DNA from: Pigmentiphaga sp. NML080357
GTDB taxonomy: Bacteria > Pseudomonadota > Gammaproteobacteria > Burkholderiales > Burkholderiaceae_B
Direction: 5' to 3'
Length of the DNA stretch: 64,000 nucleotides
NCBI RefSeq assembly: GCF_002188465.1
Contig: NZ_NINW01000037.1
Span: forward strand, 1-64,000
Shown here: positions 31,333-43,634 of the stretch, one piece after another
Position numbering within the stretch: position 1 is the first letter of the stretch
Layout of the letters: each line of letters opens with the position of its first letter
Notes under the pieces: model-generated
Seen by the model: the letters and a program-made list of their open reading frames with translations, nothing else
Told to the model about the DNA's origin: nothing
Databases searched by the model: none
Program-made: the position numbers and the translations under genes

Positions 31333-32052
31333 TCAACTCGCCGCGGCCACGGCGCCGGCATCCAGCGCGGCAAGGATGTTTCGGGCTGTTCGCTCGATGT
31401 GCTCGGCCAGGATTTCCGCAGCCAGATCTTCCTTGCGGTCCAGCGTCGCGTCCACCAGCGAACGGTGCTCCTGGGCAACGTCGCGGTCGAACGGCTGGTA
31501 GGCCAGGAATAGGCGCCGGTAGCGCGCGCTGAAATGCTGGAGCGAATCGCAAACCATCAGGGCCAGGGGCATGCGGCACGCTGCCAGCAAAGCCAGGTGG
31601 AACTCCCGGTGATGGGCCTCCCATTCGTCCACGCCGCCGCCATCCTTCTGCTCCGGACGTTCGTAGCGAGACAGCCGGTGGTGGGTCAGGACGATTCCGT
31701 CCTCCCAATCGCGGCCGCCATGCCGGATGGACTCCCGCAAGGCCATGGGTTCCAGCGTGGACTGAAGCTTCGCCACCTCCAGCAGGTTTTCGCGCGACAC
31801 GGGCGCGACCTTGAATCCCTTCTTGTCCTCGTTGACCACGAAGCCCTCGGTCGCCAGTCTGGCCAGGGCCTCGCGCAACGGGGAAAGGCTTACGCCGAAG
31901 TCTCCCTTGAGTTCTTCGATGGAAAGTCTGGCACCGGGAGGACGCCGTCCGGAAACGATGTCGTTGCGTAACCGGGTCGCGATCGCGCTCGCGAAATTCT
32001 GTCCCGTGCTCGGAGCCGGCTGCCGCGCCGGCAAGACCGATGCCAGTTTCAT
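31333..32052 (-). CDS. GntR-family transcriptional regulator (FCD subfamily)
   Basis: A 239-residue repressor-type protein. The N-terminal winged helix (about 12-75) has the GntR pattern (LRNDIVSGRRPPGARLSIEELKGDFGVSLSPLREALARLATEGFV). The C-terminal all-helical FCD ligand domain carries candidate metal-binding residues in the EWEAHHREFH and HRSLV helices. The start at 32052 is favoured because AGGAG precedes the ATGATG; ATG at 32064 lies too close. It faces the catabolic operon across a 118-base AT-rich gap with repeated boxes, so it most likely controls that operon in response to its substrate. Confidence 0.9.
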   Translation of the reverse strand: MKLASVLPARQPAPSTGQNFASAIATRLRNDIVSGRRPPGARLSIEELKGDFGVSLSPLREALARLATEGFVVNEDKKGFKVAPVSRENLLEVAKLQSTLEPMALRESIRHGGRDWEDGIVLTHHRLSRYERPEQKDGGGVDEWEAHHREFHLALLAACRMPLALMVCDSLQHFSARYRRLFLAYQPFDRDVAQEHRSLVDATLDRKEDLAAEILAEHIERTARNILAALDAGAVAAAS

Positions 32053-32106
32053 CATGCTCCTCATCTTTTGGTCTCATCGTAACACGAGGCAAGAATCATC
32101 TTTCTG

Positions 32107-32113: not shown

Positions 32114-32125
32114 ATAATCGATTAT
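32114..32125. promoter_or_regulatory. Candidate GntR operator box 1
   Basis: ATAATCGATTAT is a perfect 12-bp palindrome that sits immediately downstream of TTGACA. A near copy with one mismatch lies 47 bases further on. Its place between the GntR gene and the operon it faces makes it the natural operator. Confidence 0.6.
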
Positions 32126-32160: not shown

Positions 32161-32172
32161 ATCATCGATTAT
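32161..32172. promoter_or_regulatory. Candidate GntR operator box 2
   Basis: ATCATCGATTAT differs from box 1 at one base. It overlaps the first possible start codon of the fused hydrolase (ATG at 32171). The Shine-Dalgarno-like GGAGAAGGA (32173-32181) lies after that ATG and before an in-frame TTG at 32183, so the box may in fact lie in the 5' leader. Confidence 0.55.
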
Positions 32173-33706
32173 GGAGAAGGAATTGAAAGCCGACGCCTAT
32201 CGCGATTTATCGGACGCGCAGCCCCTCCTTTCGCTGGCGGCCCGAGTGGACGTCGCCCACACGGCCGTGCTGGTCATCGACATGCAGAACGATTTCTGCG
32301 CCTCCGGCGGTTATGTCGAACGGGTCATCGGCAAGGACGTCGCGGCATGCGGGGCCATCGTCCCCCGGCTCCAATCCCTGATCGGCGCCGCGCGCGACCA
32401 CGGCGTCCCCGTCTTCTGGCTGCGAGCCTGCTACCGGCCCGACCTGCTGCCTGCATCCATGCGCACCAAGCTGGCCGAGCAAGGCATCACTGACGTCTGC
32501 TGCGACCGCGACACCTGGGGCTACGACTGGTACGGCGTCCAGCCGCTGCCCGGCGAACTGGTAGTGGAAAAGCACAGCTACGACGGCTTCGTCGGCACCA
32601 CGCTCGAACACGAACTGCGCGACCGCGGCATCCGCACCCTGGTCTTCGCGGGCGTCCAGACCAACATCTGCGTCGAAGCCACGCTGCGGCACGCGAACGC
32701 CCTGGGGTTCCATTGCGTCGTGCCCGAGGACTGCGTGGCCTCGCACACGCAGCCCGCGCACGACGCCACGCTGAACAACGTCCGTTTCCTGCTCGGCGAC
32801 GTGACCCGGCTGGACGACCTCGCGTCTCATTGGAAGACCTCGCCGCCGCACGTGTATCTCGACTACACGCAGGAGGAACTGGATCGCGCCTATGACCAGC
32901 GCGCCTGGGCCGACAACCGGGACGCCATGCTGGCCTGGTACGCGCAGGCCAGCGCCAGCGCCCGCGAGGAATATCCGCACCACCGGCACGTCCCCTATGG
33001 CCCGGGCCCCCACGAGACCCTGGACATCTTTCCGGCGCAGCGGCAAGGCGCGCCCATCCACGTCCATGTGCACGGCGGCGGCTGGCGCAATCTCAGCAAG
33101 GACGACGAGTCCTTCCTGGCCCGCACCGTGGTTCGCGCGGGCGGCGTGCTGGTGGTGCTGGACTTTTCGCTGATACCCGAGGTGCGCCTGCCCGAGATGA
33201 TCGCCCAGACCCGCCGCGCGCTGGCCTGGGTCCGGGCCAAGGCCGCCCGCTTCGGCGGAGACCCGGACCGCATCCACCTGTCGGGCCACTCGTCCGGCGC
33301 GCACATGGCCGCGGTCCTGGCCACCACCGACTGGGAGTCCTTGCACCTGCCCGCCGACCTGGTCAAGAGCGCGCTGCTGATCAGCGGCATGTACGACCTG
33401 CATCCCGTGATGCTCAGCGCCCGCAGCGACTACGTCAAACTCCAGCCGGACGAGATCGAGCGCTACAGCCCGATCCGGCACCTGTGCCGCCTGAACTGTC
33501 CGGCGGTCGTCGCGATCGGCGACCGCGAAAGTCCCGAATTCCAGCGGCAGGCGCGCGACTTCGTCCGCGCCGCGCAGGAACAGGACAGGCAGGTGGAGCT
33601 GATGCAGCTGCCCGCCACGAATCACTACGAAATCGTGACCCACCTGAACGCCCCCGACTCCGCCCTTTCCCAGGCCGCGCTGCGGTTGATGGGCCTGTCG
33701 GGTTGA
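32171..33706 (+). CDS. Fused isochorismatase-like amidase and alpha/beta hydrolase
   Basis: A 511-residue two-enzyme fusion. Residues about 30-215 are a cysteine hydrolase of the isochorismatase superfamily with the triad Asp37 (VLVIDMQNDF), Lys134 (VVEKHSYDGF) and Cys167 (TNICVEATLRHA); sequence around it resembles ureidoacrylate amidase RutB. Residues about 270-511 are an alpha/beta hydrolase of kynurenine-formamidase/esterase type with the oxyanion motif HGGGW (His301), nucleophile Ser374 (GHSSG), acid Asp451 or Glu453 and His485. Both halves look active. The expected chemistry is hydrolysis of two carbon-nitrogen or ester bonds in succession. ATG 32171 lacks a Shine-Dalgarno; TTG 32183, with GGAGAAGGA upstream, may be the true start. 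It is the first gene of the operon. Confidence 0.88.
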   Translation: MEKELKADAYRDLSDAQPLLSLAARVDVAHTAVLVIDMQNDFCASGGYVERVIGKDVAACGAIVPRLQSLIGAARDHGVPVFWLRACYRPDLLPASMRTKLAEQGITDVCCDRDTWGYDWYGVQPLPGELVVEKHSYDGFVGTTLEHELRDRGIRTLVFAGVQTNICVEATLRHANALGFHCVVPEDCVASHTQPAHDATLNNVRFLLGDVTRLDDLASHWKTSPPHVYLDYTQEELDRAYDQRAWADNRDAMLAWYAQASASAREEYPHHRHVPYGPGPHETLDIFPAQRQGAPIHVHVHGGGWRNLSKDDESFLARTVVRAGGVLVVLDFSLIPEVRLPEMIAQTRRALAWVRAKAARFGGDPDRIHLSGHSSGAHMAAVLATTDWESLHLPADLVKSALLISGMYDLHPVMLSARSDYVKLQPDEIERYSPIRHLCRLNCPAVVAIGDRESPEFQRQARDFVRAAQEQDRQVELMQLPATNHYEIVTHLNAPDSALSQAALRLMGLSG

Positions 33707-33792
33707 ATGCCGCCACCGCGAAGGAGGAACTTGCCCACCCACTGACCCAGTAGCCCTGCTGCTTTCCCCATCATTACGTGAAAGGACTGAAC

Positions 33793-34950
33793 ATGCTTGA
33801 AGGATTCAAGATTTATGATGCAGATGCCCACGTTCTAATGACCCCGGAAATGTGGGAAACCCTTCCCAAACAGTACTGGCTGCGCCGCCCGCGGCCGGTA
33901 AAGTTCGGCGATGGCCATGAGCTCGGCAACTGGGGCACGGCGTGGCTGGTGGATGGCCGCATCGAGCCGCACCCGTTCGGACCCGGCACCCACGCCGCCA
34001 ACACCCCCGGCATGGTGCTGGAGGAATATGGCGCCAACCGCGCGCGGGCCGGCGACTTCACCGCCTTCTCCCTTCCCGTCGGCTGTGTCACGCTGGGCAA
34101 CGTCGCGGACCGGCTCACCGCCATGGACAAGCTGGGCATCGACGTCCAGGTCCTGTTCCCCAGCACGATATACGCCACCATTGCCGCGGACGCGACGCTG
34201 GAAGGGGAGCTCTTCCGCGCCTACAACCGCTATATCGGCACGCGCTGCCGGGATGCCGCCAAGCGCCTGCGCTGGGTCGGCCTGCTCCCGATGCGGGACG
34301 CCGAGCAAGCCAGGCTCGCCATGAGCGAAATGGTCTCCATGGGCGCGGCGGCCGCCGTCGTGTTCGGGACCGTGGGCGACAGGATGCTCTCGCACCCGAG
34401 CTTCGCGCCGATATGGGACGAGTTCTCGCGCACCGGGCTGCCCCTCTGCGTGCACATGGCCATGAGCTTTCCGCCGCTGGCCCAGCTGTGCGAGTCGATC
34501 CAGGACGCCAACATGATAGGCAAGGCCATGCCCGCGCAACTGGCCTTCATGGCCATGGCCGGCCACGGCATGCTGGACAAATACCCCAGCCTCAAGGTCG
34601 CTTTCCTGGAGTTCGGCGGCGAATGGATCTTCTATTCGGTGGGACGCATGAAGCAGTACGCCGAGGTCAACAAGGGCCGCATGGCCGATCCCAGCATGCT
34701 GCCCAAGAGCGACGTGGAAGACCTGGTGAAGTCGGGGCGCATCTACCTGGGCCCCGAATCCAGCGACGCCATGCTGCCGCACGAGCTCAAGCTGCTGGGC
34801 GACGGGCAACTCCTCTATTCCTCGGATTTCCCTCATGGCGAAGGACGGGACAACGCCGCGATGGAGATCATCGAGCGCCAGGACCTCACCAAGGAGCAGA
34901 AGCGCAAGTTCCTGTACGACAACGCGGCCAACTTCTACGGGGAGCCCTGA
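33793..34950 (+). CDS. Amidohydrolase-2 family protein (decarboxylase-like)
   Basis: A 385-residue TIM-barrel protein of the amidohydrolase-2 group that includes ACMSD, gamma-resorcylate and dihydroxypicolinate decarboxylases. It opens with YDADAHV (Asp11-x-His13 in place of the usual HxH). It has a CVHMAM histidine near the middle, FLEFGGEW, and SSDFPHGEG near the end with the conserved metal aspartate. AAAGGA precedes the ATG at 33793; GTG at 33778 is less likely. In context, non-oxidative decarboxylation of a ring acid or its cleavage product is the best guess, but hydrolysis cannot be excluded. Confidence 0.82.
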   Translation: MLEGFKIYDADAHVLMTPEMWETLPKQYWLRRPRPVKFGDGHELGNWGTAWLVDGRIEPHPFGPGTHAANTPGMVLEEYGANRARAGDFTAFSLPVGCVTLGNVADRLTAMDKLGIDVQVLFPSTIYATIAADATLEGELFRAYNRYIGTRCRDAAKRLRWVGLLPMRDAEQARLAMSEMVSMGAAAAVVFGTVGDRMLSHPSFAPIWDEFSRTGLPLCVHMAMSFPPLAQLCESIQDANMIGKAMPAQLAFMAMAGHGMLDKYPSLKVAFLEFGGEWIFYSVGRMKQYAEVNKGRMADPSMLPKSDVEDLVKSGRIYLGPESSDAMLPHELKLLGDGQLLYSSDFPHGEGRDNAAMEIIERQDLTKEQKRKFLYDNAANFYGEP

Positions 34951-35040: not shown

Positions 35041-36024
35041 ATGAAGCCGTTCCACCATCGCCTTGCCCGATATTCCCTCGTGCTGCTGCCCCTGGCCGCC
35101 CACGGCGCAGCCTGGGCCCAGAACAATGCCTATCCGTCCCGACCCATACGCATCGTGAATCCCTACGGGGCCGGCGGCTTGGGAGACGTCAGCTTCCGGC
35201 TGATCGCGCCGCTGATGGAAAAGCAGCTCGGGCAGCCGCTCGTCATCGAGAACAAGCCCGGCGCCTCCGGCAACCTGGGCGCCGCGGACGTGGCGCGCGC
35301 CGCCCCGGACGGCTATACGCTGCTGCTGGGTGCCGTGAACAATTTCGCGACGAACCAGTATCTCTACCGCGACATGACCTTCGATCCGCTGACGGCGTTC
35401 GATCCCATCGCGCTGATCAGCAACGCGCCCACGATCGTCGTCGTCAATCCCGCCGTGCCGGCCCGCAGCCTGCGCGAACTGGCCGCCTACGCGAAGGAGC
35501 GGCCGGGCAAGGTGAACTTCGGCTCGCCGGGCATCGGCACCCCGCCCCATCTCGCGGCCGAGTTCTTCGCGAACCTGGCCAACGTCTCGATGACCCATGT
35601 CCCGTTCAATGGCTCGCCCCCCGTCGTGCTCGCCCTGCTGCGCAACGATGTCAACGTGGCCTTCTACACCGCCGGCCCCATCGCGGGCCCGCTCAAGGCC
35701 GGCACGATCCAGCCCATCGCGGTCGCGGCCAGCGAACGGCTCGACATCCTGCCCAACGTGCCGACCACCGCGGAAGCGGGCTTCGGCGCCCTGCAGACGG
35801 GCAGCTGGATAGGGCTGGCCGCGCCCAAGGGCACGGATCCCGCCGTGCTGGACAAGCTCAACGCGGCCGTCCGGCAGGCGCTGGCCGACCCGGAGGTGCG
35901 CAAGCGCTATGCGGAGATGGGCATGCTGACCGGCAATACCAGCCGCACGCAATTCTCGGCGCTCATCGACGCCGAGGCGACCCGGTGGAAGAAAGTGATC
36001 GCCGACGCGGGGATCGCGAAATGA
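35041..36024 (+). CDS. Bug/TctC-family periplasmic solute-binding protein
   Basis: A 327-residue tripartite-tricarboxylate-type binding protein. A signal peptide ends GAAWAQ. The typical YPSRPIRIVNPYGAGG opening, VIENKPGASGNLGA, and APDGYTLLLG follow, with GTPPHLAAEFF in the middle. Bug proteins bind small carboxylates or aromatic acids in the periplasm and are greatly expanded in Bordetella. No TctA or TctB membrane genes are nearby, as is common for orphan Bug genes. Placement inside the operon suggests it senses or captures the pathway's substrate. GGAGA lies upstream of the ATG. Confidence 0.93.
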   Translation: MKPFHHRLARYSLVLLPLAAHGAAWAQNNAYPSRPIRIVNPYGAGGLGDVSFRLIAPLMEKQLGQPLVIENKPGASGNLGAADVARAAPDGYTLLLGAVNNFATNQYLYRDMTFDPLTAFDPIALISNAPTIVVVNPAVPARSLRELAAYAKERPGKVNFGSPGIGTPPHLAAEFFANLANVSMTHVPFNGSPPVVLALLRNDVNVAFYTAGPIAGPLKAGTIQPIAVAASERLDILPNVPTTAEAGFGALQTGSWIGLAAPKGTDPAVLDKLNAAVRQALADPEVRKRYAEMGMLTGNTSRTQFSALIDAEATRWKKVIADAGIAK

Positions 36025-36043: not shown

Positions 36044-37036
36044 ATGCTGACGCTGACGCTTGCCTGCGCCGCCTATGACCGGACGCGGCCGCTGATCGAC
36101 GGGCGGGTCGCCATCGAAGGCGTCGAACTGCGGGCGACGACGCTGCACCCCGAGGCCGCCTTCGCGCGCGCGAAGGCGGCCGAGTTCGACCTGACCGAGC
36201 TGTCCTTGAGCGGCTACCTGCGCTCGCTGGATGCCGGGAAGCCGACCTATGTCGCGCTGCCGGTCTTTCCCTCGCGGGCCTTTCGCCACAGCGGCATCTA
36301 TGTCCATGCGGGCCGCGGCATCCGCTCGCCGGCCGACCTGCGCGGCAGGACCATCGGAACGCCGGACTACAAGACGACGGCCAACGTCTGGATCCGGGCT
36401 TTCCTGGCCCACGACCACGGCGTCCAGCCCCACGAAATGCAGTGGATGGAGGCCGCCATGGAAGCGGGCGAACCGGGGCCGGCCACCGCCACCGCCGTCC
36501 CGGGCGTCTCCATCCTGGCCCTGCCGGACCAGGACTTGTCCGGCATGCTGGCCCGTGGAGAGATCGACGCGGTCGTCGGCGCCAAGGTGCCGTCCTGCTT
36601 CGGCCCCGGGCAGGACGGCGTGGCCCGGTTGTTCCCCGATCATCAACGGGTTGAGCAGGACTACTACCGGCGCACCGGCTTCTTTCCCATCATGCATGTG
36701 CTGGGACTGCGGCGCGACCTGCACGAGCGCCATCCCTGGCTGGCCCAGGCGATCTGCCAAGGCTTCGAGGCCGCCCGGCGCATGGCGCTCCAGGACCTCC
36801 GGGACGTCTGCCAGCTGGCCGCCACCCTGCCCTGGGTCGTGGCGGAATACCAGCGCACGGTGGACCTGATGGGCGAGGACTACTGGCCGTACGGCCTGGA
36901 TGCCAACCGGGAGGTGCTGCAGGCCTTCGCGCGCTACCACTTCCAGCAGGGCTTGTCCGCCCGGCTGCACAGCCCCGGCGATTGGCTCGCCCCCGCGAAT
37001 TTTTCTTCGAACCGCGTCACCACGAGATCCGCATGA
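36044..37036 (+). CDS. 4,5-Dihydroxyphthalate decarboxylase-like protein
   Basis: A 330-residue protein without a signal peptide, in the periplasmic-binding-protein fold group that contains 4,5-dihydroxyphthalate decarboxylase (Pht5). The opening LTLACAAYDRTRPLIDGRVAIEGVEL, FDLTELSLSGYL, FPSRAFRHSGIYV and GTPDYKTTANVWIRAFL are characteristic. Known relatives decarboxylate 4,5-dihydroxyphthalate to protocatechuate; other members are uncharacterised. Its stop overlaps the ATG of the next hydrolase (ATGA), so the two are coupled. Decarboxylation of a dihydroxy ring acid before extradiol cleavage is inferred. Confidence 0.82.
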   Translation: MLTLTLACAAYDRTRPLIDGRVAIEGVELRATTLHPEAAFARAKAAEFDLTELSLSGYLRSLDAGKPTYVALPVFPSRAFRHSGIYVHAGRGIRSPADLRGRTIGTPDYKTTANVWIRAFLAHDHGVQPHEMQWMEAAMEAGEPGPATATAVPGVSILALPDQDLSGMLARGEIDAVVGAKVPSCFGPGQDGVARLFPDHQRVEQDYYRRTGFFPIMHVLGLRRDLHERHPWLAQAICQGFEAARRMALQDLRDVCQLAATLPWVVAEYQRTVDLMGEDYWPYGLDANREVLQAFARYHFQQGLSARLHSPGDWLAPANFSSNRVTTRSA

Positions 37037-37896
37037 ACGAACGCCCCGCACTCTACGACATCGAGGCCACGGTCCCCGATTTCCGCACCCACCTGCAGCG
37101 CTACGCCGAAGCCAGCCGGCTCACGCGCGAGCGACGGCCGACCCGGCTCGACCTTGCCTACGGCGAAGGAGCCGCGCACACGCTGGACGTCTATCTGGCG
37201 GACGCTCCCCACGCGCCCGTGGTGATCTACCTGCACGGCGGCGCCTGGAAAGGGTCGAGCAAATCGGACCGCGGCTTTCCCGCCGATACCTTCGGGCCGG
37301 CGGGCGCCATCTGGGTCTCCATGGAATATCCCCTGGCGCCCGCCGCGAGCGTGGACGACATGGTCGCGGCGGTACGCAAGGGCGTGGCCTGGGTCCATCG
37401 CCACGCGGCCTCCTTCGGCGGCGATCCCGGCCGCATCTTCCTTTGCGGCAACTCCGCGGGCGGCCATCTGGCCGGCATGGCGGCGGCCACCGACTGGGCG
37501 GCGCACGGCCTGCCGGCCGACCTCGTCAAGGGCATCACGACGGTGAGCGGTATCTTCGACATGCGGCCCATGGCCCGATCGCTGATGAACGAGTGGCTGC
37601 GCCTGGATGCGGAAAGCGCCGCGCGCAACAGCCCCCTCCTGCACCTGCCTCGCGTGGCCTGCCCCCTGGTCTGCGCCGTGGGGGAAAAGGAGTTGCCCGA
37701 ATTCATCGAGCAGTCCGCCGGCTATGCGCGGGCATGGGCCGCCGCGGGCTACCCCTCGCGCTTCATGCCCATGCCGGGCCATGACCATTTTTCCATCATC
37801 GACGAGCTCAACCGGCCCGACGGCCCGCTGCTGGCGGCGATGTTCGAACAGATCGGCCTTCGCAACCGCGGCGCCGCTTCCCGCGCCCACACCTGA
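37033..37896 (+). CDS. Alpha/beta hydrolase (kynurenine formamidase-like)
   Basis: A 287-residue cytoplasmic hydrolase. It has HGGAW (His68) for the oxyanion hole, the nucleophile Ser141 in GNSAG, Glu218 or Glu220 in GEKELPEF and His252 in GHDHFSII. Alignment by eye with the C-terminal half of the fused hydrolase (ATDW...LPADLVK..., SPL/SPIRHL, ELPEF/SPEF) shows the two are paralogues. The acid residue is Glu here and probably Asp there. Likely substrates are N-formyl amides or esters formed in the pathway. The start overlaps the previous stop by four bases. Confidence 0.87.
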   Translation: MNERPALYDIEATVPDFRTHLQRYAEASRLTRERRPTRLDLAYGEGAAHTLDVYLADAPHAPVVIYLHGGAWKGSSKSDRGFPADTFGPAGAIWVSMEYPLAPAASVDDMVAAVRKGVAWVHRHAASFGGDPGRIFLCGNSAGGHLAGMAAATDWAAHGLPADLVKGITTVSGIFDMRPMARSLMNEWLRLDAESAARNSPLLHLPRVACPLVCAVGEKELPEFIEQSAGYARAWAAAGYPSRFMPMPGHDHFSIIDELNRPDGPLLAAMFEQIGLRNRGAASRAHT

Positions 37897-37916: not shown

Positions 37917-39080
37917 ATGAAACTGCATCTTCGCTCTTGCCTCGCATCATGCGTCCTGGCCGCCGCGGCCGCGCACGGCCCTGCGCATGCCGCCGACAAG
38001 CCCTTGAAGATCGGCGTCGTCACCGAGTTCTCCGGCACCTATGCCTCCGCCGGGCAGTCCATCGAAAGCGCGATGCGCGCCTACATGAAGCTCAACGGCG
38101 ACACCGTGGCCGGCCGCAAGGTCGAGCTCATCCTGCGCGACACCGGCGGCATCTCGCCCGAGAACGCGCGCCGCTACGCGCAGGAACTGGTCACCCGCGA
38201 CAAGGTCGACGCGCTGGTGGGCTTCAACTTCACCCCCAACGCGCTGGCCGCCGCGCCCATCGCCACCGCGGCCAAGACGCCGATGATCGCGCTCGCGGCC
38301 ACGGCCATCGTCACCGAGAAGTCTCCCTATATCGTGCGCACCGCGTTCACGCTCGGACAGACGTCGGCGCCCATGGCCACCTGGGCGGCCAGGAACGGCA
38401 TCAAGCGCGTATTCTCGCTGGTGTCCGACTACGGCCCCGGGCACGACGCCGCGCAGGCCTTCAAGGATGCGTTCACCGCCGCCGGCGGCCAGATGGCGGG
38501 CGAAATACGCATGCCCGTCAGCAGCATGGAATTCGCGCCCTTCCTGCAACGGGCCCGCGACGCGCGCGCCGACGCCATCTTCGTGTTCGTGCCGGGCAGC
38601 GAAGCCGCCATCGCCTTCATGAAGGCGTACAACGAACGCGGTTTCAAGCAAGCGGGCATTCGCCTGATCGGCACGGGCGACCTGGTCGACGACGACTCGC
38701 TGCCGGCCATCGGCGACGTCGCGCTGGATACCGTCACCGCCCACCACTACTCGGCCGCGCACGACTCCGACCTGAACCGCGGCTTCGTCAAGGCGGTCCA
38801 GGATCAGGGACGCAAGCGGCCCAACTTCATCGGAGTGGGCGCCTATGACGCCATGGCCGTCATCTACGCCGCGGTCAAGAAAACCGGCGGCGATACCGAC
38901 GGCGACAAGCTCGTCGCGGCGATGAAAGGACTCAAGCTCGACAGCCCGCGCGGCCCGATCTCGATCGACCCCGCCACGCGCGACATCGTGCAAGACATCT
39001 ACATCCGCAAAGTCCAGAAGGTCGGAGGCGAGCTCTACAACGTCGAGTTCGACAAGATCAAGGCCGTCAAGGCCCGCTAG
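37917..39080 (+). CDS. Branched-chain-type ABC transporter substrate-binding protein
   Basis: A 387-residue periplasmic protein of the LivJ/type I family. A signal peptide ends PAHA. The domain opens LKIGVVTEFSGTYASAGQSIESAMRAYMKLN and continues with VDALVGFNFTPNALAAAPIA and DAIFVFVPGSEA. Relatives in catabolic clusters bind aromatic acids rather than leucine. AAAGGAG lies upstream. Four importer genes follow directly, giving a complete system. Confidence 0.93.
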   Translation: MKLHLRSCLASCVLAAAAAHGPAHAADKPLKIGVVTEFSGTYASAGQSIESAMRAYMKLNGDTVAGRKVELILRDTGGISPENARRYAQELVTRDKVDALVGFNFTPNALAAAPIATAAKTPMIALAATAIVTEKSPYIVRTAFTLGQTSAPMATWAARNGIKRVFSLVSDYGPGHDAAQAFKDAFTAAGGQMAGEIRMPVSSMEFAPFLQRARDARADAIFVFVPGSEAAIAFMKAYNERGFKQAGIRLIGTGDLVDDDSLPAIGDVALDTVTAHHYSAAHDSDLNRGFVKAVQDQGRKRPNFIGVGAYDAMAVIYAAVKKTGGDTDGDKLVAAMKGLKLDSPRGPISIDPATRDIVQDIYIRKVQKVGGELYNVEFDKIKAVKAR

Positions 39081-39094
39081 CCAAAGGAGTCCGC

Positions 39095-39976
39095 ATGCTG
39101 ACCGACTTCGTCGGCGTGATCATCGATGGAACGTCGTACGGCGCCATGCTGTTCGTGATCGCGCTCGGATTGTCCATCACGCTGGGGTTGATGGGTTTCG
39201 TCAACCTCGCGCACACCGCCGTCGCCATGTTCGGCGGCTATTTCCTCGTTACGCTGGTCAACCAGTTGGCCTGGCCGTTCTTCGCGTCGGTGGCCGTGGT
39301 CGTGGCGGCGATCGCCCTGGCCAGCCTGGTGCTGGAACGCGTGGTCTATGCGCCCTTTTATCGCGCCACGGCGCTCGACCAGAGCCTCCTGACCTTCGGG
39401 TTGATGCTGATGGCCGGCGGCATCGTCCACTATTTCTGGGGGCCGTCGCAACAGGCGGTGCGGGTGCCCGAGTACCTGGACGGCCGCTGGTACCTGGGCG
39501 ATCTCAGCGTCTCCAAGTACAGGCTGATGCTGCTCGGCACGGGCCTGGCCTTGCTCGCCCTGCTGAACTGGGGACTCGACTCGACCCGCCTGGGCGCGAT
39601 GATCCGCGCCTCGGTCGACAACCAGCGCATCGCGGCCGCGATGGGCATACCGGTCAAGCGCGTATTCATGATCGCCTTCGCGATCGGCAGCGGGCTCGCG
39701 GCGCTGGGCGGCGCACTCGGGGCCGAGGTGCTGGGCCTGGATCCGGCCTTCGCCACGCGCACGCTGGTGCTGTGCCTGCTCGTGGTGGTGCTGGGCGGCG
39801 CCGGCTCGGTCAACGGCACCTTCTTCGCCGCCATGCTGCTGGGCATCTGCGACATCGGCAGCAAATACTACGTCCCCGAGTTCGGGGCCTTCATGATCTA
39901 CGTGCTCATGGCGCTGGTCCTGCTGTACCGGCCGCAAGGCCTCTACAGCCTCTTCGCGCGCAGGAGGGCCGCATGA
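39095..39976 (+). CDS. Branched-chain-type ABC transporter permease (LivH-like)
   Basis: A 293-residue inner-membrane permease with about eight helices. It has the LivH pattern DGTSYGAMLFVIALGLSITLGLMGFVNLAH at the start and the EAA-like loop MGIPVKRVFMIAFAIGSGLAALGG. It follows the binding protein by 14 bases with AAAGGAG, and its stop overlaps the ATG of the next permease. Confidence 0.94.
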   Translation: MLTDFVGVIIDGTSYGAMLFVIALGLSITLGLMGFVNLAHTAVAMFGGYFLVTLVNQLAWPFFASVAVVVAAIALASLVLERVVYAPFYRATALDQSLLTFGLMLMAGGIVHYFWGPSQQAVRVPEYLDGRWYLGDLSVSKYRLMLLGTGLALLALLNWGLDSTRLGAMIRASVDNQRIAAAMGIPVKRVFMIAFAIGSGLAALGGALGAEVLGLDPAFATRTLVLCLLVVVLGGAGSVNGTFFAAMLLGICDIGSKYYVPEFGAFMIYVLMALVLLYRPQGLYSLFARRRAA

Positions 39977-40959
39977 ACGGCAGCCCGCTGCGCCCCCTGC
40001 TGGACCGCTCGCGCTGGCGCGTGCCCGAGCTCGTGTTCTGGACGCTCGTCGTCGCGGCCTTCTTCGTCTTTCCCGATCACCGCAGCCTGGGCGCGCAAGT
40101 GCTGGTGACCGGCATCTTCGCGCTGTCGCTCGACATGCTGCTGGGCTACGCGGGCATCGTCACCCTGGGACATGCCGCGTTCTTCGGCGTGGGCGCGTTC
40201 ACCGCCGGCTGGCTCGGCAAGTACGGCTGGCACGAACCGGTCTCGGCGCTGGCCATCGCCGCCGCCGTCACGGCATGCGCGGGCGCGCTCGGCAGCCGGC
40301 TGGTCGTGCGGGGCACCGACCTGAGCCGGCTCATGGTGACGCTGGCCATCGGCCTCGTGCTGTACGAGGCCGCCAACAAGGCCACCGCGGTCACCGGCGG
40401 CATCGACGGCCTGCAAGGCATCGAGTTCGCGCCGCTGCTTGGCCTCTTCCCGTTCGACCTCATGGGATCGACCGCCTACGCATACGCGGCCATCGTGGCC
40501 TTCGTCACGCTCTACCTCGTGCGCAGGCTGGTCAATTCGCCCTATGGCCTGTCCCTGCATGCCACGCGCATGAACCGCCGGCGCGCGCTGGCCGTTGGCA
40601 TCGACGACGGCCGCACCCTGGCGATCTCCTACGTCGCCTCGGCGGCGGTGGCGGGCGTCGCGGGCGCGCTGACGACGCAGATCACGCAGTTCATCACCAT
40701 CGATGCGCTCGGTTTCGGGCGGTCGGCCGACATCCTGATCATCGCCGCGCTGGGCGGCGTGGGCTACCTGTACGGCGGCTTCATCGGCGCGCTGGTATTC
40801 GTCGTGGGCCGCGACCTGCTGTCCGGCATCAGCCCCGCCTATTGGCATTTCTGGCTGGGCCTGCTGCTGGTGCTCACCATCTTCTTTGCCCGCGGCGGCA
40901 TCATGGGCACCGCCGCACGGCTGGCCCGGCGCCTGGCGCACAAGGAGGCGCAACGATGA
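39973..40959 (+). CDS. Branched-chain-type ABC transporter permease (LivM-like)
   Basis: A 328-residue membrane permease, the LivM partner of the LivH-like protein. Several long hydrophobic helices surround LGYAGIVTLGHAAFFGVGAFTAGW and the cytoplasmic loop in which GIDDGRTLAISYVASAAVAGVAGAL lies. The ATG at 39973 overlaps the previous stop (ATGA), and its own stop overlaps the ATPase start, so the whole importer is translationally coupled. Confidence 0.94.
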   Translation: MNGSPLRPLLDRSRWRVPELVFWTLVVAAFFVFPDHRSLGAQVLVTGIFALSLDMLLGYAGIVTLGHAAFFGVGAFTAGWLGKYGWHEPVSALAIAAAVTACAGALGSRLVVRGTDLSRLMVTLAIGLVLYEAANKATAVTGGIDGLQGIEFAPLLGLFPFDLMGSTAYAYAAIVAFVTLYLVRRLVNSPYGLSLHATRMNRRRALAVGIDDGRTLAISYVASAAVAGVAGALTTQITQFITIDALGFGRSADILIIAALGGVGYLYGGFIGALVFVVGRDLLSGISPAYWHFWLGLLLVLTIFFARGGIMGTAARLARRLAHKEAQR

Positions 40960-41714
40960 TACAGACCGTGGACCTGTGCAAGCGCTTCGGCGCGCTGGTG
41001 GCGACCGACAACGTGAACCTGTCGCTCGCTCCCGGCGACCGGCATGCGCTGATCGGCCCGAACGGCGCGGGCAAGACGACCTTCATCAACCTGCTGACCG
41101 GCATGCTGCGCCCGACCTCGGGCCGCGTGCTGCTGGACGGCGCGGACGTGACCGCGGCGCCGCCCGACAAACGGGTGGACCTGGGGCTGGTGCGCACTTT
41201 CCAGATCAATACGCTGTTCCTGGATATGACCGTGCTGGAGGCGGTCACGCTGGTCGTGCTGGCGCGCACCGGAGCCGTCCGCTCGCTGTTCGGGTCGCTG
41301 CGCCGGCATGAGCCGGCGGCCACCGAGGCCTGGGAATTGCTCGAGCGCATCGGCCTGGCGCAGGACGCGCATCGGCCCACCCGGCAGCTCGCCTATGGCA
41401 GGCAGCGGCTGGTGGAAATCGCGCTCGCGCTGGCGCGCAAGCCCAAGGTGCTGCTGCTGGACGAACCGGCGGCCGGCGTCTCGGCGGCCGACAGCCGCCA
41501 TGTCTTCGCGGTCCTGGATCGACTGCCCCAGGACATCGCCATCCTTTTGATCGAACACGACATGAACCTCGTCTTCCGTTTTGCGCAACGCATTTCGGTG
41601 CTCGTCGCCGGCCGCCTCATCGCCACCGGGCTACCTGGCGACATCGCCCGCGATCCCCGCGTGCGCGAGGCCTACCTCGGGCAGGCGGCGCCCCTGGAGG
41701 CGGCATGCGCATGA
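40956..41714 (+). CDS. Branched-chain-type ABC transporter ATPase (LivG-like)
   Basis: A 252-residue nucleotide-binding subunit. Walker A is GPNGAGKTT (about 35-43); a Q-loop lies in VRTFQINTLF. The ABC signature is degenerate (LAYGRQRLVEIALAL, lacking the usual LSGGQ). Walker B is VLLLDEPAAG and the H-loop is IEHDMNLVF. The LivG-type C-terminal sequence VREAYLG is present. It starts inside the LivM stop. Confidence 0.93.
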   Translation: MIQTVDLCKRFGALVATDNVNLSLAPGDRHALIGPNGAGKTTFINLLTGMLRPTSGRVLLDGADVTAAPPDKRVDLGLVRTFQINTLFLDMTVLEAVTLVVLARTGAVRSLFGSLRRHEPAATEAWELLERIGLAQDAHRPTRQLAYGRQRLVEIALALARKPKVLLLDEPAAGVSAADSRHVFAVLDRLPQDIAILLIEHDMNLVFRFAQRISVLVAGRLIATGLPGDIARDPRVREAYLGQAAPLEAACA

Positions 41715-42430
41715 GCGCTACGGACAGCCTGCTGCAACTGGAGCACGTGCGCGCCGGCTACGGCGACGCGATGGTGCTGGACGATCTCTCGTTCTCCGTG
41801 GGCGCCGGCGACGGTCTGGCGGTGCTCGGACGCAATGGCGTGGGCAAGACCACCCTGCTCGAAACCCTGATGGGCAACACGCGCCTGACGGCAGGGCGCA
41901 TCCTCTGGCAAGGCCGCGACCTCGCCAGGCTGGACGCCTGCCAGCGATCTCGCGCCGGGCTGGGCTGGGTGCCGCAGGAGCGAGAGGTGTTCGCCTCGCT
42001 GACCGTCGAGGAAAACCTGACCGTGGTGGCCTGCCGCGGCCCGTGGACGCTGGACCGGGTATACGGTCTGTTTCCGCGACTGCGCGAGCGGCGCAACAAC
42101 CTGGGCAACGAACTGTCCGGCGGAGAACAGCAGATGCTGGCGATAGGCCGCGCGCTCATGACCAACCCGCGCCTGCTCCTTCTGGACGAACCCATGGAAG
42201 GCCTGGCTCCTATCGTCGTCGAGGAACTCGGCGCCGCCATCATTGCCCTGCACACGCAGGAAGGCATGAGCACCATCGTGGTCGAGCAACACCCGGTCAT
42301 CGCCCTGGCCATGACCTCGACCGCCATCATCCTGGACCGCGGCCGCATCGTGCATCGGTCCTCGAGCGAAGAACTGCGGGCGTCGCCCGAGATACTCGAC
42401 CGCTGGCTCAATGTTGCCGCGGCCGAGTGA
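41711..42430 (+). CDS. Branched-chain-type ABC transporter ATPase (LivF-like)
   Basis: A 239-residue ATPase. Walker A is GRNGVGKTT, the signature is LSGGEQQM, Walker B is LLLLDEPMEG and the H-loop histidine is in VEQHPV. The ATG at 41711 overlaps the LivG-like stop in the ATGA pattern used throughout this operon; ATG 41705 is an alternative. It completes a five-part importer placed between the hydrolases and the dioxygenase. Confidence 0.93.
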   Translation: MSATDSLLQLEHVRAGYGDAMVLDDLSFSVGAGDGLAVLGRNGVGKTTLLETLMGNTRLTAGRILWQGRDLARLDACQRSRAGLGWVPQEREVFASLTVEENLTVVACRGPWTLDRVYGLFPRLRERRNNLGNELSGGEQQMLAIGRALMTNPRLLLLDEPMEGLAPIVVEELGAAIIALHTQEGMSTIVVEQHPVIALAMTSTAIILDRGRIVHRSSSEELRASPEILDRWLNVAAAE

Positions 42431-42465: not shown

Positions 42466-42771
42466 ATGGGAATCCGAGACACCGACAAGACCCTGCCTTC
42501 CAACCGCATGGTGTTCGAGCTGCGGCGCGACGAGCAGAAGTACCTCGCCTTCAAAGAGGACCTGGAAGCCACCATGGCGGCCTACGGCCTGGGCGAGGAA
42601 GAGAAACGCGCCTGGCGCGCCATAGACATCGAGGCCCTCGGCGCGATGGGCATGCACCCCTATTTCCTGCCCCAGGTCTCGCGCCTGTTCAAGGGCGGCT
42701 CGCGCAACCACAACGACAGCGACGCGGCCCGCCTGTATGCCGAGAAAATGGGTATCGCATCCAAGGACTGA
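42466..42771 (+). CDS. Extradiol dioxygenase small (LigA-like) subunit
   Basis: A 101-residue helical protein resembling the alpha subunit of protocatechuate 4,5-dioxygenase. Recognisable stretches are SNRMVFELRRDEQKYLAFKEDLEATMAAYGL and the C-terminal ALGAMGMHPYFLPQVSRL. LigA is about 140 residues, so this is a compact form. It lacks metal ligands and in LigAB-type enzymes shapes the active site. AAGGAG precedes the ATG. It is followed 14 bases later by the catalytic subunit. Confidence 0.87.
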   Translation: MGIRDTDKTLPSNRMVFELRRDEQKYLAFKEDLEATMAAYGLGEEEKRAWRAIDIEALGAMGMHPYFLPQVSRLFKGGSRNHNDSDAARLYAEKMGIASKD

Positions 42772-42785
42772 CTCCGGAGACTCGC

Positions 42786-43634
42786 ATGGCAAAGATCGTA
42801 GCAACCCTGGGCGTGGCCCACGCTCCCGGCGTCACCGGCTGGATAGACAAGGCGCCGCAGCATGAGCAGGACGGCGTATTGGCCGGCTATGCCAGGTTCC
42901 AGCAGTTGATGGACGAGGTGCGTCCGGACGTGGTCATCGGCATCGCCAACGACCATCTGCTGAACTTCTCGCTCGACAACATTCCGGACTTCTGCGTGGG
43001 CATCGGCGAACAATGGGCCGGCCCGGCGCCTTGGTTCCGCGACTGGCTCAACATCCCGGACTACACGGTGGCCGGCCACCGCGAACTCGGGCGCGCGCTC
43101 GTGCGCGAATCGGCCAAGGCGGGCATCAACCATGCCTTCGCCGACAAGCTCTTGTTCGACGACAACTGGTCGGTGCCGCTCAAGTTCCTGTTCCCGCGCT
43201 ACGACGTGCGCTTCGTCCCCATCCACATGAATCCCATCGTGCCGCCGGTGCCCAGCGCGGCGCACTGCTACGCGGTGGGAGAGACCATCGCGCGCATCGT
43301 CCAGCAATTCCCGTCGGACGAGCGGGTGGTGGTCATGGGTACGGGCGGCCTCTCGCACGATCCCGGCGGCAAGGACTACTTCACGGTGCACGAGGAATTC
43401 GACCGCTGGTTCCTCGAATTGATGGAATCCGGCGATGCCGAGCGCGTCAAGCGCGAACTCACCTTCGACAAGCTGCTGACCGGGGGCGACGGCGGCGCGG
43501 GCGAATTGCTGGCATGGGTCGTCGCCATGGGCGCGGCCGGCGTATGCGGCAATACGCGTGCGGAAACCGTGTTCTACGTGCCCTCGGTGCCGATGCGCTG
43601 CGGCATGGGTGGAGTCTACTGGCGGCTCGATTGA
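42786..43634 (+). CDS. Class III extradiol dioxygenase catalytic (LigB-like) subunit
   Basis: A 282-residue LigB-type ring-opening dioxygenase. Candidate Fe(II) ligands are His12 (LGVAHAPG) and His57 (IANDHLLNF), with Glu in NTRAETVFY near residue 260. The catalytic His191 lies in TGGLSHDPGG. The family cleaves vicinal diols beside one hydroxyl, including protocatechuate, gallate and some dihydroxypyridines. The usual aldehyde dehydrogenase, hydratase and aldolase genes of protocatechuate 4,5-cleavage are missing from this operon and amidase-type genes are present instead, so the substrate is probably not protocatechuate. It is the last gene of the operon. Confidence 0.9.
   Translation: MAKIVATLGVAHAPGVTGWIDKAPQHEQDGVLAGYARFQQLMDEVRPDVVIGIANDHLLNFSLDNIPDFCVGIGEQWAGPAPWFRDWLNIPDYTVAGHRELGRALVRESAKAGINHAFADKLLFDDNWSVPLKFLFPRYDVRFVPIHMNPIVPPVPSAAHCYAVGETIARIVQQFPSDERVVVMGTGGLSHDPGGKDYFTVHEEFDRWFLELMESGDAERVKRELTFDKLLTGGDGGAGELLAWVVAMGAAGVCGNTRAETVFYVPSVPMRCGMGGVYWRLD

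Follow-up and report, generated by a model that had tools for sequence, protein, structure and literature searches.

The fusion gene and its operon

The window, i.e., the whole 64,000-nucleotide stretch of DNA analysed here, contains an operon in which an isochorismatase-like amidohydrolase and an alpha/beta hydrolase are encoded by a single gene. The features of the locus are as follows, where "fused" and "split" denote species of the genus with the fused and with an unfused isochorismatase, respectively.

31333..32064, minus strand: divergent GntR/FCD regulator (PF00392 and PF07729), divergent in fused and split species
32114..32125, no strand: palindrome ATAATCGATTAT, candidate operator of the FCD regulator, in all 6 fused species
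32171..33706, plus strand: fusion gene, isochorismatase-like amidohydrolase and alpha/beta hydrolase, 511 aa (single ORF, Pfam, 5 other species, AlphaFold2)
32225..32836, plus strand: amidohydrolase domain (N-half), residues 19-222, with Asp37-Lys134-Cys167, CC(110-111) and WG(116-117) (Pfam, fold, invariance)
32852..33703, plus strand: alpha/beta hydrolase domain (C-half), residues 228-511, with HGGGW 301-305, Ser374, Glu453 and His485 (Pfam, fold, invariance)
33778..34950, plus strand: Amidohydro_2 metal hydrolase/decarboxylase-like protein (PF04909), inserted module, co-occurring with the fusion
35041..36024, plus strand: TctC/Bug periplasmic binding protein (PF03401), inserted module
36044..37036, plus strand: 4,5-dihydroxyphthalate-decarboxylase-like or substrate-binding-like protein (weak PF09084), inserted module
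36982..37896, plus strand: second, free alpha/beta hydrolase, 38% identical to the fused C-half (Pfam, sequence comparison)
37917..42430, plus strand: branched-chain-type ABC transporter livKHMGF (K, H and M by Pfam; G and F by position and sequence)
42466..42771, plus strand: LigA-type small dioxygenase subunit (PF07746)
42786..43634, plus strand: LigB-type class III extradiol dioxygenase of a subfamily of its own (PF02900)

The fusion gene reads as one frame without interruption (32171-33706, plus strand). Pfam assigns residues 31-215 to Isochorismatase (PF00857, E 2e-43) and residues 285-414 to BD-FAE/Abhydrolase_3 (E 3e-19 and 1e-18), with almost no linker joining the two halves. The full-length ORF, free of stops and frameshifts, recurs in five further species of the genus at 92-95% identity. 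The claim of the preliminary description that two complete hydrolases are fused in one chain is thus borne out by the ORF, by Pfam and by these five species. Six independent genomes share the in-frame junction, which refutes a missed stop or frameshift between the halves and any other assembly or sequencing error by which two genes would have been merged; we regard the probability of such an artefact as negligible.

Among the fused species, pairwise dN/dS (Nei-Gojobori) has a mean of 0.15 in the isochorismatase domain and of 0.115 in the C-domain, i.e., both halves are functionally constrained by purifying selection. We also considered an internal start that would yield two proteins. Codon 228 at the junction is GTG in the window species (1/6) and GTC in the other five fused species. 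Since the start codon is not conserved, this candidate was rejected and a single fused product is expected.

Structure prediction of the whole chain with AlphaFold2 (46-row alignment) gave two confident domains with a mean pLDDT of 92, low confidence being limited to residues 1-17 and to residues 225-229, which form the junction. The pTM of 0.64 means that the mutual placement of the two domains in the model is not trustworthy.

Between the divergent regulator and ligA-ligB, the operon runs from the fusion through Amidohydro_2, Bug, the decarboxylase-like gene and the free hydrolase to liv. This block is flanked by a CBS-domain gene and yihY, and the arrangement is kept in the fused species. 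The locus of Alcaligenaceae bacterium SAGV5 has neither the free alpha/beta hydrolase nor the transporter and retains the fusion, Amidohydro_2, Bug, the decarboxylase-like protein and ligAB. The protein at 36044-37036 is related both to 4,5-dihydroxyphthalate decarboxylase and to NMT1-type binding proteins; its 43-46% matches carry one of two annotations, 4,5-dihydroxyphthalate decarboxylase and ABC substrate-binding protein. Upstream, the core TAATCGATTA of the palindrome is also present in two split species (G193 and G194), and the occurrence of ATAATCGATTAT in the fused species and of its core in these two is consistent with one regulon. As to the start of the fusion gene, a sequence that resembles the second half of the operator lies across the start codon, and codons 1-18 (32171-32224) encode an invariant peptide with a dS of 0.09 vs. 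0.22-0.25 (a small sample of six species).

The combination of PF02900 and PF07746 identifies the last two genes as a LigAB-type class III extradiol dioxygenase. Window LigB matches protocatechuate 4,5-dioxygenase (PDB 1b4u) with E 2e-23 and does not reach the cut-off of any named class III family (best 143 bits vs. 290; gallate 109 vs. 412; protocatechuate 102 vs. 837). PydA, the 3-hydroxy-4-pyridone dioxygenase, is characterised by the motifs DDHFENH and EWICGM (PMC3637104). Window LigB carries NDHLLNF at the place of the former, and the latter was not found in it, so that we rejected the PydA/mimosine route. Given the scores below all named cut-offs and the missing PydA motifs, window LigB is assigned to its own LigB subfamily.

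Both active sites and their closest relatives

For the N-half, its description as an isochorismatase-like amidase agrees with the PF00857 match, the Asp-Lys-Cys triad and the fold (Z 28). Asp37, Lys134 and Cys167 are invariant among the 6 fused proteins and 19 stand-alone isochorismatases. Model residues 20-222 superimpose on TrtA, BiuH and RutB at Z about 28, and triuret/biuret hydrolase and RutB are also closest by sequence (E 5e-26 to 1e-22). The respective equivalog scores remain below cut-off (BiuH, NF050097: 114.4 vs. 370 bits; RutB, TIGR03614: 110.3 vs. 377.95 bits). The entries 3ot4/3uao, which we take to be maleamate amidohydrolase (NicF), reach E 6.9e-11 against 5e-26 for BiuH. CC(110-111) and WG(116-117) are common to the fused domain and the lone isochorismatases linked to ligAB. 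Position 138, near the catalytic Lys, is Asp in the fused isochorismatase and Ser in all lone ones compared.

The C-half shows the features of the HSL/kynurenine-formamidase type, namely HGG, G-x-S-x-G, an acid, a His and the full-length fold. Its model (residues 229-511) compares best with Lipase 1 of Pseudomonas chlororaphis PA23 (9n8r, Z 38.4), followed by Drosophila kynurenine formamidase (Z about 33), so that the predicted fold supports the earlier label "formamidase-like". The score for the HaHSL-type hormone-sensitive lipase model NF058665 is 136.8 bits, below the cut-off of 320.

The preliminary description had called both active sites intact, which stands for Asp37-Lys134-Cys167, for Ser374 and His485 (invariant among the 6 fused proteins and 22 stand-alone alpha/beta hydrolases) and for the presence of HGGGW (residues 301-305; HGGAW in most relatives). 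Its choice of Asp451 as the acid is probably wrong. Position 451 varies among relatives (E, T, S, Q, A, G or D), while position 453, three residues ahead of a conserved Glu-Phe (456-457), is Glu or Asp in every relative. The catalytic acid of the C-half is therefore probably Glu453, presumably the position that also provides the acid in mammalian kynurenine formamidase.

Distribution and history of the fusion

The fusion was identified in 6/11 genomes of the genus and was not found in the rest of the 268 family genomes searched, nor in samples of 399 genomes from the order and 398 from the phylum, which overlap in part. No further fusion appeared among 80 of 310 isochorismatase loci listed, except for Alcaligenaceae bacterium SAGV5, which is probably the same genome as one of our six (G197). 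A plasmid search yielded no match with at least 80% query coverage, and in open-licence papers we found no description of an isochorismatase plus alpha/beta hydrolase architecture. Judged by these comparisons, the fusion is a genuine and conserved new domain architecture, restricted to the genus among the genomes searched. A different fusion within the isochorismatase superfamily was seen in a Rhodospirillaceae MAG (L063:3009-4325), where two isochorismatase domains lie head to tail in one frame of 475 aa.

That relatives might always be two separate genes, as had been considered, does not apply, since six species carry the fusion and four sister species an unfused isochorismatase. In two of the latter (G193 and G194), the locus reads regulator / isochorismatase - alpha/beta hydrolase - liv - ligA - ligB; in G198 it is regulator / isochorismatase - ligA - ligB and in G191 isochorismatase - ligA - ligB. 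One further genome of the genus (G189) is without LigB. None of the four unfused-amidase loci showed a fused C-half, an Amidohydro_2, a Bug or a decarboxylase-like gene, and within the family the Amidohydro_2 gene and the fusion are found in the same 6/268 genomes. The alpha/beta hydrolase of G193/G194 is 60% identical to the window's free hydrolase and 38% to the fused C-half. We thus rejected the C-half as an orthologue of the free hydrolase (36982-37896), to which it is 38% identical.

The simplest history, which we consider likely from gene order, starts from an older locus of regulator, isochorismatase, ligA and ligB. A module of alpha/beta hydrolase, Amidohydro_2, Bug and decarboxylase-like genes would have entered between the isochorismatase and the rest of this locus, its first gene becoming joined in frame to the isochorismatase. 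For the direction we infer insertion here rather than loss there. As to a donor of the module, the Amidohydro_2 protein had no plasmid match at E 1e-30.

Between G191/G198 and the window, LigB is about 91% identical and the isochorismatase domain about 55%. In the tree, a long branch leads to the fused domain, which does not group with the clade of the genus' lone isochorismatases, and the fused-only change from Ser138 to Asp points the same way. Vertical descent of the fused isochorismatase from the genus' lone gene was nevertheless not rejected by the AU test for one clade (p 0.22 with G191/G198; 0.074 with all four), such that either replacement or fast divergence is possible.

Outside the genus, lone isochorismatases that are 45-54% identical to the fused domain directly follow ligA-ligB. 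Hosts among the matches listed, which include alpha- and betaproteobacteria, are Pusillimonas, Reyranella and Enterovirga as well as an alphaproteobacterial, a proteobacterial and a Tectomicrobia MAG; a Bosea plasmid shows the same order. In Reyranella, a 2-hydroxymuconic semialdehyde dehydrogenase (839 bits vs. cut-off 693) comes immediately after the isochorismatase. In Tectomicrobia, a CN_hydrolase gene lies ahead of ligA; a Tectomicrobia MAG has two tandem isochorismatase genes behind ligA-ligB (L047:10001-11391). On the Corynebacterium glutamicum plasmid p48A (L040:4009-10179), hydantoinase A/B, LigB, a LigA-like protein and an FmdA-like formamidase are encoded in a row, a gene set suggestive of a cluster for degrading an N-heterocycle or an amide. 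The LigB proteins of this plasmid and of Tectomicrobia are related to window LigB, while the amidase-type partners are non-homologous. With isochorismatase, FmdA-like and CN_hydrolase genes all beside a related ligB, a C-N hydrolase is a recurrent partner of this LigB group.

Proposed function and comparison with known systems

The reading that we hold to be probable, if only just, is that the fused chain works as a bifunctional hydrolase within an operon for inducible catabolism, providing an amidase and a deacylase step linked to LigAB. Here, the Cys domain would hydrolyse a C-N acyl bond in the ring-opened LigAB product, or in an amide form of the LigAB substrate, on the model of RutB acting on ureidoacrylate. 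The Ser domain, of kynurenine-formamidase type, would act on that intermediate or a neighbouring one and take off another acyl group, which is probably a formyl. Channelling between the two domains is possible. In favour of this bifunctional role are the intact gene in six species, the constraint on both halves, the invariant catalytic residues and the lack of a conserved internal start. The amidase half's subfamily elsewhere follows ligA-ligB as a lone gene, the folds are those of TrtA/BiuH/RutB and kynurenine formamidase, and Amidohydro_2 tracks the fusion. On the other side, lone-isochorismatase operons lack the C-half, so that the core pathway can run without it; esterases, too, belong to the alpha/beta hydrolase family; and Asp138 together with the long branch suggests that the activity of the fused isochorismatase may have shifted.

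Alternatively, the C-domain could have esterase or amidase activity and, jointly with the Amidohydro_2 and decarboxylase-like proteins, prepare the substrate. The two domains would then not act in succession, and the fusion would only fix stoichiometry or be a by-product of the insertion. The C-half comes with the inserted module, whereas the amidase is part of the older ligAB core; Lipase 1 (9n8r) is the solved structure nearest to the C-half by sequence and fold; and relatives of the C-half are found in unrelated contexts beside Bug genes. Conservation in six species, the near absence of a linker and the constraint on both halves speak against this explanation, though not decisively. We consider this explanation unlikely, yet a serious one. 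Doubtful to a higher degree is an amidase step before ring opening, in which the carboxamide of a catechol- or gallate-type acid is hydrolysed and LigAB then opens the ring. The amidase adjoins ligAB, the operon has no hydroxylase, and relatives of LigAB open protocatechuate and gallate, but the nearest relatives of the amidase half act on ureido and biuret compounds, and LigB falls below the cut-offs for protocatechuate and gallate dioxygenases.

The preliminary description had framed the fusion by nicotinate-type pathways, i.e., as N-formylmaleamate deformylase plus maleamate amidohydrolase. The pair of chemistries and superfamilies fits. However, the amidase half is much nearer to BiuH/TrtA/RutB than to 3ot4/3uao, and the ring-opening enzyme of the operon is of LigAB type. 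This assignment is thus very improbable, and we read the nicotinate pathway as an analogue rather than as the pathway to which the fusion belongs.

More broadly, and tentatively, since we give it a real chance but less than an even one, the operon may represent a new ring-cleavage pathway for an N-bearing aromatic compound. A distinct LigAB subfamily would always be coupled to a C-N hydrolase (isochorismatase in proteobacteria, FmdA or nitrilase elsewhere), condensed in this genus with a formamidase into one bifunctional and possibly channelling enzyme. That the ligA-ligB-isochorismatase triad occurs in several phyla suggests a catabolic route not yet described, and interest in the fusion would rise if the LigAB-linked pathway proves new. 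Within one genus, the operon exists in a fused, a split and a minimal form, which makes it possible to measure directly what joining two hydrolases does; judging from the upstream regions, these forms look to be under the same regulator and operator.

Among known systems, RutB is the best chemical analogy to the N-half, with which it shares fold and triad. It cleaves the N-acyl enamine ureidoacrylate after oxidative opening of the uracil ring; in contrast, no other Rut gene was recognised in the fusion operon. In the nicotinate pathway, the deformylase NicD and the amidase NicF provide the same pair of reaction types as the fusion halves, yet as two separate proteins. That pathway also uses another type of ring-opening enzyme, and the presumed NicF entries (3ot4/3uao) are not the nearest relatives of the N-half in the comparisons made. 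Kynurenine formamidase (Drosophila 4e11/4e14/4e15) and Lipase 1 (9n8r) resemble the C-half in full-length fold and Ser-His-acid triad and differ by an identity of only 20-29% and by the fusion. TrtA/BiuH share with the N-half the fold (Z about 28) and the Asp-Lys-Cys triad as defined for hydrolases of this type (PMC7948467), but the identity is about 30%, and the N-half has its own CC...WG signature, the fusion and the LigAB context. The 3,4-dihydroxypyridine pathway (PydA/PydB; KpiC/KpiB) differs by the PydA motifs, which window LigB lacks (PMC3637104), and no fusion is described there. In it, a class III extradiol dioxygenase opens the ring before a deformylase of the alpha/beta hydrolase type acts, which demonstrates that extradiol opening of an N-heterocycle can precede such a deformylase (PMC7356986).
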